The notes below the pieces were generated by a model. The model worked only from the letters and a program-made list of their open reading frames with translations. It had not been told where the DNA came from and made no database searches. A stretch of 64,000 nucleotides of DNA, taken from positions 1 through 64,000 of the forward strand of contig CAIZQU010000086.1 in the NCBI GenBank assembly GCA_903935205.1, given 5' to 3'. How positions within the stretch are numbered: the stretch's first letter is position 1; each line of letters opens with the position of its first letter. Origin of the DNA: an uncultured cyanobacterium. Its GTDB lineage: Bacteria > Cyanobacteriota > Cyanobacteriia > PCC-6307 > Cyanobiaceae. Positions 15,143 to 17,790 of the stretch are shown piece by piece. Made by a program: the position numbers and the translations under genes.

Positions 15143-15655
15143 TCAATTGAGGCCGAGGGAATGACGCATGCTGCCAACGGTTTTCTTCATGTCTTCATCG
15201 CTGATGTGACCCGCTTCAAGCAACTGCTGGGCCAGGGCTAATTTGGCCCGGTTCAGTTGCATCTGCAGCAAACCCGAGCAGGTGTTCTTAAAGCCGGTGC
15301 CGCCAAGCGGCACCAGCAGGGCCACCCCACCTCCGACCCCTTTGCTGCGGTCGAGGCTTTCCGGGAAGCTCAGGCCGCTGCCGGCGCTGTCCTCCCCCTG
15401 GCGCCAGCGGCCATAGACCACCAGCGAAGGGGGTGAACGGTCCGTCACCGAACATGTGCTGCCATCATCGAAATCGACCTGAAGCCGGGGTTGGGGGGCG
15501 TAGGCGGCATCGTTGTTGACGGAGATCCCGTCCGCAGCCATCAGGGGTTGACCCAGAAGCGCGAGCAGGATTCCGTAGCCAACAATGCTGAGCCACTGGT
15601 GGAACCCCCTGCCTGGCCTTCCTTGCGCTCGACCGGTGGTATGTAGAGAGCACAT
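15143..15655 (-). CDS. Secreted protein of unknown function, third gene of pilin/chaperone-like operon
   Basis: A 170-residue frame. The N-terminus ends in a good signal peptide: basic residues, then LSIVGYGILLALLGQPLMA, with cleavage before ADG. The mature part of about 128 residues has two Cys ('GSTCSV' and 'KNTCSG'), a Gly-rich middle and a charged helical tail that includes 'HISDEDMKK'. It overlaps the upstream chaperone-like gene by 115 bases in another frame, unusually long; a shorter overlap would need a start codon that I do not find. A frameshift fusing the two genes is less likely, because the signal peptide sits inside this frame. No domain recognised. Confidence 0.6.
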   Translation of the reverse strand: MCSLHTTGRAQGRPGRGFHQWLSIVGYGILLALLGQPLMAADGISVNNDAAYAPQPRLQVDFDDGSTCSVTDRSPPSLVVYGRWRQGEDSAGSGLSFPESLDRSKGVGGGVALLVPLGGTGFKNTCSGLLQMQLNRAKLALAQQLLEAGHISDEDMKKTVGSMRHSLGLN

Positions 15656-15972
15656 ACAAAGTAAGGGGTTTTCTGGGTGACCGTGGTTTTCAGGGTCAGG
15701 ACCAGCTTCTTCATCTTGTTGGGAGGAAGTTTGAAGCTGGCGGGCATCAGCGTGACACCTTCACTCAGAACCGGGCCTGCCTTGGTCGGCTCATCGCTGG
15801 GGCCCTTGACGCGCACCGTGATCATGATCGGTTCGGTTCGCGAGTGGGAGACCTGGAGCTTGACCCGTGCGATCTGATTGCGCACGCTATAGTCTTTCTT
15901 GTCCAGATAAACGGTCTGAGCAGAAACCTGCCCAGACCATAAAACTGCCAGCAGCAGTAAACAGCGCTTCAT
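15541..15972 (-). CDS. Periplasmic chaperone-like protein (PapD-type fold suggested)
   Basis: A 143-residue protein with a signal peptide (MKRCLLLLAVLWSGQVSAQ). The mature part alternates hydrophobic beta-strand segments: 'ARVKLQVSHSRTEPIMITVRV', minus its first residue, 'ASFKLPPNKMKKLVLTL' and 'TPYFVCALYIPP'. This order, with an Arg-containing strand, a Pro-Pro-Asn-like loop before a long strand, and a 'Y.VCAL' strand, resembles domain 1 of pilus-assembly chaperones. It begins three bases after the pilin-like gene, so the two are co-transcribed. There is no usher in the window, and no second chaperone domain. The assignment is structural intuition rather than a clear motif match. Confidence 0.55.
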   Translation of the reverse strand: MKRCLLLLAVLWSGQVSAQTVYLDKKDYSVRNQIARVKLQVSHSRTEPIMITVRVKGPSDEPTKAGPVLSEGVTLMPASFKLPPNKMKKLVLTLKTTVTQKTPYFVCALYIPPVERKEGQAGGSTSGSALLATESCSRFWVNP

Positions 15973-15975
15973 CGA

Positions 15976-16434
15976 TCAGAGCGCGGTGCAGGTGGCGGTA
16001 GTGGCCAGTGTGTAGCTGCCTGCCGAGAGCAGTTGGCTGGCGTTGTTCTGGGTGATCTCAGTGGTGATGTTGCCCGAGAACCTGTTGACACCGGTCTTTT
16101 CAGCGCCCGTGACCGAGGCGGTGGTGGAGTTGCTGCTGACGAGATTGGCCAGGCTGACCGAGGGGATGTAGGCCGCAGCTTCGGCGGGGGCGCTGGGAGC
16201 CAGGGCGCTGAGGGTGACTGTGGCTCGGCCATTTGAGACGAACTCGTAGCTGCCGGTGCCGGTGAGCTTGTCTTTCTGGGCTGTCACGTCCATCGAAATC
16301 GAGCCAGCTGAGGTGATATCGCAGAAGCTGGGGTTGGTGCCGCTGGAATCAATGCTTGCAGATGTGCCCGCAAATCCAGCCAGTGGAGTGCAGGCAACGG
16401 CGATCATTGCGGCGACAGCGTGAATGGTTTTCAT
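15976..16434 (-). CDS. Secreted pilin-like or spore-coat-U-like beta protein
   Basis: A 152-residue protein with a signal peptide (MKTIHAVAAMIAVACTPLAGFAG). The mature part is rich in Ser, Thr, Ala and Asn with short beta-strand-like repeats, and has two Cys, one near the start ('NPSFCDI') and one near the end ('TATCTAL'). An N-terminal/C-terminal Cys arrangement and Thr/Ser richness are seen in chaperone-assembled surface subunits. It is first in a tight minus-strand operon with the chaperone-like gene. GC content is lower than in flanking clpB. Identity as a surface subunit is inferred. Confidence 0.55.
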   Translation of the reverse strand: MKTIHAVAAMIAVACTPLAGFAGTSASIDSSGTNPSFCDITSAGSISMDVTAQKDKLTGTGSYEFVSNGRATVTLSALAPSAPAEAAAYIPSVSLANLVSSNSTTASVTGAEKTGVNRFSGNITTEITQNNASQLLSAGSYTLATTATCTAL

Positions 16435-16596
16435 TGCAAGTAGGTGCTGTGAAGTGTTGCCCCCTTGAGGGCTCCCACGTCATAGGCCGGTTCAATCGGC
16501 AGGGTCAAGTTGTGATTGATGCTGCCCTATCTTTTTGGACCAGTAACATCGTTAATGCATTTCTCGCATACTCTCGGCAGGTCCCTGGTGAATCCA

Positions 16597-17703
16597 ATGG
16601 CGAAGCGTCGTGTTCATGCTCCAGAGTTCAAAGCCCAGGTGGCTCTTGAGGCTTTGAGCAGCAAAAAGACTTTGGCTGAAGTTGCCGCTATCTACAAGTT
16701 GCATCCAGTTCAGGTCTGTCAATGGAAGCAGCAGATTGCCAAGCGCCTTCCTGATCTCTATCGCCAGCGAGATCTGTCTGGCAATCAGGATGCAGCTGAG
16801 GTGTTGAAGTTGCAAATCAGCAAGTTGGAATCTGCCAATGCCGCGTTACTGGAAGAGCTGGCCTGGCTCAAAAAAAAATTCTACAGATACAATCAGCCGA
16901 TTCTGAGATCAGTGCTGGAGCCCGACCATCACGCTATCTCCATGCGGCGTCAATGTGATTTGGTTGGCATGGCAAGATCCAGTTACTACTACAGTCCCAC
17001 CAACAACGTCTCGACCACCCATGACCTGGCTCGTTGCATCGACTATATGTGTATGCTTGATCCGGCCATCAGCGGCCAGAAACTCCTGGCTGAGCTTCAG
17101 GCCAAAGGCATTCCGATTCATAAGAACTACCTCCACCGCCTCCTCTGCCACCTGGGGTTTGCCCCTTTTGAGCGCAGGCTTACCAAGCTCTTTGTTGATC
17201 GCTGCGCCCAGCCATCCCCCCAGGCCTCGCTGATGCAGATGGCTCAGGACCCCGAGCGGCAATGGATTCTTGACATCGCCTATTGGCCCACTCCCCAGGC
17301 GGATTTGTTCGCCGCTCTGATCGTCGAAAGCCAATCGCAGCGCTGCCTCGCCTGGGGACTTTCCGACAGCCTCAGTTCCGCCCTTCCGACCGCCGTGTTG
17401 CAGAGGGCCATGCAGAAGCATCCCTTGCCCCTCAGCCTGCGCTGCGAAACCTTTCTGCCGCTGCTGAGCGATCGGTTTCTCGCCTGCCTGAACCAGGATG
17501 CCGTCGCTTTGGTGGCGCCCCTCTGGTTGGATCGCCAGCGGGGCGGCGGAGCCGGTCGGGCCACCCTGCTGGCGCCCCTGTGGCGGTGCTTGAAGCAACG
17601 GGCCGCCGACCTGCAATTCGGTGATGGCGATGCCAGCAATGAATGGGTGCTTGACCAGGCGCTCAAGACGTTGCCGAACCCCCTGGCACAGCATAGTCTG
17701 TAG
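16597..17703 (+). pseudogene. IS3-type transposase, OrfA and OrfB in one frame, catalytic residues lost
   Basis: A 368-residue frame from MAKRRVHAPEFKAQ. Residues 1-95 are OrfA: a helix-turn-helix ('KKTLAEVAAIYKLHPVQVCQ') and a leucine zipper. At 'WLKKKFYRYNQ', an A-rich site where IS3 elements normally shift frame, it passes straight into OrfB ('RRQCDLVGMARSSYYY'). In the DDE domain only the first Asp remains ('WILDIAYWPT'); the second Asp and the Glu are absent, and the last 140 residues diverge and are host-like in GC. No terminal inverted repeats were found. Dead or repurposed; the open frame persists. Confidence 0.75.
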
Positions 17704-17790
17704 GTTGTATGTAGGGTCGCCCTTTGGGCCTGGCGGGGGCGGCTGGATGTTGACCGATTAACGATGAATCGCTTGCTTCGGTCGATCGCA

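Follow-up and report, generated by a model that had tools for sequence, protein, structure and literature searches.

A candidate usher-less chaperone-subunit module and an adjoining transposase-derived gene in a family of picocyanobacteria

Do three tightly packed genes for exported proteins in an uncultured cyanobacterium of the family Cyanobiaceae form a chaperone-assembled surface system, and is an usher part of it? The genes, here called A, B and C, lie in a stretch of 64,000 nucleotides (positions 1 to 64,000 of contig CAIZQU010000086.1, assembly GCA_903935205.1), referred to as a whole as the window, and a sequence-only reading had proposed them as a pilin/chaperone operon. The proposal stands in part, as a chaperone-subunit module that is supported for B and weakly supported for A; profile comparison links C to neither chaperones nor pilins. 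All three open reading frames were recovered on the minus strand where they had been placed (Table 1), with a gap of 3 nt between A and B and an overlap of 115 nt between B and C. By inspection, A, B and C each begin with a signal-peptide-like N-terminus, and every mature protein carries two cysteines, invariant in six-row alignments (C38/C149 in A, C107/C136 in B, C68/C126 in C). The lower GC content that had been noted was confirmed at 0.601 for the trio compared to 0.664 for the window, the lowest 500-base segments (0.496–0.536) mostly covering the beginning of A, the adjoining spacer and the neighboring transposase-derived gene T. The trio is not a chance arrangement, as the same gene order recurs elsewhere and dN/dS is 0.07–0.22 for A, B and C in the three pairs tested.

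Table 1. Positions of the trio, gene T and associated elements in the window
Feature	Position	Strand	Basis
Gene A: pilin-like exported protein of 152 aa, rich in Thr/Ser, with two Cys	15976..16434	-	ORF list, weak profile match to cyanobacterial pilins, low-confidence beta model
Gene B: single-domain PapD-like periplasmic chaperone (predicted), 143 aa	15541..15972	-	Profile and model comparisons
Gene C: exported two-Cys protein, 170 aa, C-terminal part faintly SHOCT-like	15143..15655	-	ORF list, family profile, dN/dS
B/C overlap in two frames: last strands of B and signal peptide of C	15541..15655	-	Conserved start and open frame, fourfold-site differences
Gene T: IS3-type OrfA-OrfB fusion with degenerate catalytic triad	16597..17703	+	Oriented divergently to A; open reading frame from 16516, with Met 28 taken as the start
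Predicted promoter of A: TTGACC, 18 nt, TATGAC	16479..16508	-	Best pair of scan in window
Element ending in ATCGTTAA, like inner part of IS3-type left end; candidate T binding site	16537..16555	+	Kept in 7/7 T-linked loci

The trio is conserved. A search with the B protein found matches in 7 of 149 genomes, the window's genome among them, and the B profile applied across the phylum found 2 of 386, namely the window's genome and another member of its family. The C profile matched 13 of 292 genomes at E ≤0.1, with E below 1e-6 in only three, the genome of the window and a pair of distant relatives; among 300 genomes of the family, the A profile matched 19 at E ≤0.1, 13 of these at ≤2.5e-6. Because their trios are broken, L007 does not enter the first B profile (A2) or the A and C profiles (A1, A3), and L060 of genome G031 does not enter alignments A4–A6. 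The order A-B-C was found in 17 loci, 13 close (the window, L051–L059 and L061–L063) and 4 distant (L047–L050), with L060 as one additional, broken locus; the co-occurrence check suggested in the sequence-only reading thus returned a conserved trio. The match to B is modest in L047 (E 8e-4) and L048 (E 2e-4). In L049 and L050 it is weak (E 0.17 and 0.21), which we count against the module reading; membership of these two loci therefore rests on position together with their A and C matches. Three A-like genes precede B and C in L047 and two in L048. The neighbors of the trio differ from genome to genome among the loci compared, indicating that the unit has moved or that the genomes have been rearranged. 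Neither B nor C matched any of 72,556 plasmids.

Several individual loci deserve description. In L047 (9086–11092) and L048 (6515–8539), an AraC-type regulator and a 307-aa protein come after the multi-A operon. The protein is conserved, with 67% identity between the two loci; it has no Pfam match but looks by eye like an outer-membrane barrel and is a candidate exporter. In L060 (7767–8893), a deletion fuses the start of A into B and the match to C is limited to the first 40 residues; T still adjoins this broken trio. Close to the trio in genome G001 (L005, 2895–3260, in operon orientation) is an exported protein that we take to be CHRD-domain-like. L064 was rejected as a trio member, its match to C being weak (E 3e-5) and the same stretch containing no match to A or B.

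Searched singly against Pfam and NCBIfam, the three proteins returned nothing but one chance-level match for C, and a sequence search of solved structures with the family profiles gave one match for B (E 0.045), none for A and two for C (E 2 and 2.8). The PapD_N family weakly matched 4 of the 17 members of the B family (best E 0.0032), and a genome search with it picked out B itself in two genomes (positions 17–125 and 15–122 of 126), below the cut-off, which was passed in none of the 18 trio genomes. The structure check suggested for B gave an Ig-like, chaperone-like fold: a model of mature B from five sequences (pLDDT 76.6, pTM 0.69) retrieved pilus chaperones in 12 of the best 13 Foldseek rows, with E values from 1.6e-3 and no row reaching 0.001. 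VIA aligned residues 2–117 of FimC to residues 1–125 of the B model at Z about 9, and unrelated Ig-like domains also scored at Z 9–10 (alpha-2-macroglobulin 10.0). Since these domains score like chaperones, the fold of B alone does not decide its identity.

Profile comparison was more specific. We built a chaperone domain profile from four E. coli and nine cyanobacterial chaperones, leaving out L092, which is nearly the same as L091; L099, L100 and L103 yielded no chaperone-like ORF. Residues 7–123 of the B profile aligned to residues 8–126 of domain 1 of these 13 chaperones at E 9.2e-5, a value equaled by none of 60 column shuffles, compared to E 0.08 for domain 2. With the nine cyanobacterial chaperones alone, E was 0.001 over residues 7–75, while the four E. 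coli chaperones alone gave a weak match to domain 1 (E 0.012 over 96 columns) and one to domain 2 (E 0.009 over 10 columns), and this smaller comparison is therefore not domain-specific. At its C-terminus, CSRFWVNP of B aligns to SRIKLYYRP of FimC, placing the end of B at the domain border. Cys107 and Cys136 are invariant in 17 of 17 rows and lie in the model's final two strands, and by our reading of the alignment Arg138 occupies the position of the basic G1 residue given in the available part of PMC4133393 as K112 in PapD and K139 in Caf1M. B is the best-supported part of the trio: in sequence and model it resembles, from end to end, Ig domain 1 of pilus chaperones of the PapD/FimC type, in agreement with its earlier description as a single-domain chaperone-like protein.

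A is weakly supported, by profile and model, as pilin-like, which falls short of a proven pilin. Without signal peptides, A weakly matched two cyanobacterial pilin profiles (E 0.005 and 0.04), in each case better than 60 of 60 shuffles; E. coli pilins gave no match (E 0.16, with 1 of 60 shuffles as good). The model of A is weak (pLDDT 60.9, pTM 0.47). The PapG pilin domain fills its top two Foldseek rows, at E 0.015 and 0.036, a result to which so weak a model lends little weight, and its best VIA rows were other beta-sandwiches at Z up to 5.6, with no pilin among the best 50 rows, an absence that excludes nothing. An alternating I-x-A/S-x-G stretch, comparable to that of FimG or FimF, occurs in the first mature residues before the first cysteine in 13 of 13 close A rows. 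The second cysteine is missing from one A-like protein each in L047 and L048.

C is under constraint (dN/dS 0.17–0.22 in three pairs), and its signal peptide is encoded inside B, read in a different frame. In 13 of 13 close loci C keeps both its start codon and an open frame, with a one-codon shift in L054, and fourfold-site differences in B are lower over the overlap's second half (0.478) than over its first half (0.655) or the rest of mature B (0.628). By coordinates the overlap is also present in L047 and L048 and absent in L049. An alternative start of C at the ATG beside the stop of B was discarded as unconserved, whereas the upstream start is conserved. SHOCT faintly matched the C-terminal part in 4 of 17 C family members (E 0.0044); a thiolase C-terminal model matched seven members equally faintly (E 0.0021) and was taken as chance. 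Profile searches found no relatives of C with a known role, and C was rejected as a chaperone domain 2 or a pilin for want of a profile match to either.

The sequence-only reading had reported no usher near the trio and suggested a search elsewhere in the genome. The absence was upheld: no usher (PF00577) passed the cut-off in any of the 18 trio genomes, including that of the window, with one weak match in G514 (E 0.215). Eleven of these genomes have a completeness of ≥90% and contamination of ≤5%, and several are drafts below 90% completeness. The family passed the cut-off in 15 of 244 sampled cyanobacteria, all from families other than the window's, and by inspection a chaperone-like ORF of about 250–267 aa lay near the usher in 10 of 13 such loci fetched. 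B aligns with chaperone domain 1 only, itself supported, and does not show the two Ig domains of known chaperones. With neither an usher nor a second chaperone domain, membership of the trio in the chaperone-usher class fails as tested.

Upstream of A, T or its HTH part is divergently placed in the seven loci closest by B (the window, L051, L058, L059, L060, L062 and L063) and was not found in the other trio loci compared. T is a single open frame in four loci, divided between two frames in L060 and L051, and reduced to its HTH part in L059; its match to HTH_Tnp_1 (E 3.7e-4, 21.1 bits) is below the cut-off of 24.1. Compared to four IS copies from these genomes, all six OrfB parts have kept the first D of the catalytic triad, replaced the second D by E and replaced the third E by A, S or T. 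In 4 of 4 IS copies the two ends carry matching terminal inverted repeats, with 0 of 200 shuffles as good, and matched repeats were unsupported in five T loci (21, 50, 142, 157 and 24 of 200 shuffles as good). The ATCGTTAA block is kept upstream in 7 of 7 T-linked loci and is also carried by IS copies in the window's genome. In the window the IS-end element lies 47 nt upstream of the predicted -35 box of A. Six of the seven T-linked loci have, at a constant distance from A, a TTGAC(C/T), 18 nt, TATGAC-like pair, and in those six the block is 46–48 nt further upstream; a stricter consensus scan listed no promoter upstream of A. Beyond T, a 10-base copy of ATCGTTAA on the minus strand (17757–17766) is perhaps the remnant of a right IS end; it is not significant alone (21 of 200 shuffles as good), and far-side copies are also present in L058 and L060.

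The T sequences group as a single clade (support 1.000). Distances between them track the trio distances (r 0.90), the true order being the only one of 120 as good in a comparison of 5 taxa from which L059, with its HTH part only, and L060 were omitted. In the single unsaturated pair, L062/L063, dN/dS of T is 0.23. Outside trio loci, T relatives in 221 family genomes had at most 32% identity over most of the length, with 36–38% over the first half and up to 48% in the HTH part for shorter stretches. Other IS3-like matches were rejected as functional relatives of T: of ten inspected, five were readable at the motif (L130, L131, L134, L135 and L137), and all five have HSDQG intact. We read T as a candidate exapted regulator of the trio in one lineage.

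Taken together, we give an even chance to the reading that A-B-C is a minimal usher-less chaperone-subunit module in which B donates a strand to A and T regulates the unit in one lineage. A would be exported and then folded in the periplasm by B, whose last strand, G1, would be lent to the unfinished Ig-like sheet of A by donor-strand complementation, while basic residues of B would grip the C-terminus of A as domain 1 of PapD-type chaperones does. A could then move on, either to a further A by way of its N-terminal strand or to C, which is probably a periplasmic or outer-membrane partner of A serving as an anchor, cap or hand-over factor. The first step would probably work like the chaperone-usher pathway; any assembly and export to the surface would follow. 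In one lineage, T, as a transposase-derived DNA-binding protein, may set transcription by acting at the old IS end, which lies upstream of the promoter.

Two other accounts of A-B-C were weighed. The trio might involve no assembly system, B being a small periplasmic Ig-like binding domain held by a disulfide and A and C being soluble proteins, secreted or of the envelope, encoded in the same operon. This would suit the equal Z scores of unrelated Ig-like domains and chaperones, the weak model of A and its lack of a match to E. coli pilins, the failure of C to match anything and the usher not found. However, of the profiles tried, B clearly fits only chaperone domain 1, end to end, and A fits only pilins, and several A-like genes ahead of one B in L047 and L048 resemble fimbrial subunits sharing one chaperone; we regard this account as rather unlikely. 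It is improbable that the trio encodes a true chaperone-usher pilus, a more extreme version of the Synechocystis case, with an usher encoded elsewhere and too diverged for Pfam. Against it, the PF00577 search that succeeds in other cyanobacteria gave no match over the cut-off in 18 genomes, 11 of them within the completeness and contamination limits above, and B is without the second domain of known chaperones, though the weak match in G514, the incomplete drafts and the location of the Synechocystis usher slr0019 apart from cccSP (PMC4390875, in the part available) would all be compatible with it.

For T, the competing account is a decaying insertion sequence left beside the trio with no regulatory function, which we consider a real possibility, if somewhat short of probable. 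The survival of the HTH part only in L059, the parts in different frames in L060 and L051, as in ordinary IS3-type copies of these genomes, the far-side ATCGTTAA copies in the window and two other loci, and the absence of T from other trio loci are what decay would produce. The persistence of T in G031 despite the broken trio likewise favors decay and also counts against the module reading. Decay sits less well with the dN/dS of T in its one unsaturated pair, the loss of the same two catalytic residues in 6 of 6 OrfB parts, the agreement of T and trio distances in five taxa and the upstream element kept in all seven loci.

Returning to the module reading, a bolder form of it, which we hold as a tentative and doubtful proposal, is a family-specific usher-less system in which a one-domain chaperone and a new partner protein, C, serve to move or polymerize pilin-like subunits, one branch having recruited a catalytically dead IS3-type transposase as a dedicated regulator with the old IS end as its operator. 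If true, a donor-strand subunit handled by one chaperone domain without an usher would mean that little machinery is needed, and other routes by which such subunits leave the cell would become testable. In addition to type IV pili, these picocyanobacteria would have a candidate surface system, and T would be a case of an insertion sequence turned bacterial regulator.

Compared to IS3-family insertion sequences, T shares an OrfA-type HTH, an OrfB-like domain and the upstream ATCGTTAA block, but it has lost two of the three catalytic residues, has no matched ends and occurs as one copy per genome beside the trio. A literature search for a domesticated IS3 transposase acting as a bacterial transcription factor found none, and the available text of a review of recruited mobile elements (PMC8987985) does not mention IS3.

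Among assembly systems, the FGL chaperones (Caf1M, DraB, SafB) have an F1-G1 disulfide and an N-terminal extension of 12–14 residues before strand A1, according to the available part of PMC4133393. B resembles them in that its model places the cysteines, which may form a disulfide, in F1 and G1 and shows a long loop between these strands; it differs in lacking a second domain and the N-terminal extension, its first strand starting from mature residue 2. Archaic chaperone-usher systems occur in Cyanobacteria, as stated in the accessible portion of PMC4654587. The trio shares with archaic Csu pili an exported subunit and a chaperone, but the Csu chaperone anchors its subunit by both domains and needs an usher, whereas B has one domain and no usher was found. 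The cyanobacterial pilin-chaperone-usher operons (L091–L103) likewise have an exported small subunit followed by a chaperone, B matching the first domain of their chaperones and A weakly matching their pilins; their chaperone ORFs of about 250–267 aa lie beside an usher, unlike B with 143 aa and no usher.

The closest comparison is with the CccS/CccP system (slr1667-slr1668) of Synechocystis sp. PCC 6803, described in the parts available of PMC6755745 and of the review PMC4390875. Both pair a pilin-like protein with a PapD-type chaperone in one operon with no adjacent usher. In Synechocystis, SCPU and PapD_N are recognized and the genome encodes an usher homologue, whereas the trio, compared by description, is below both family cut-offs, has no usher over the cut-off, a one-domain B and the extra gene C. 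The sequence-only reading had called the trio the best candidate in the window for an undescribed surface system. A literature search on pili, to the extent of the text accessible, returned no report of A-B-C. Cyanobacterial chaperone/subunit pairs with a distant usher gene have already been described (PMC4390875, in the part available), so that the trio is best seen as a variant of a described kind.
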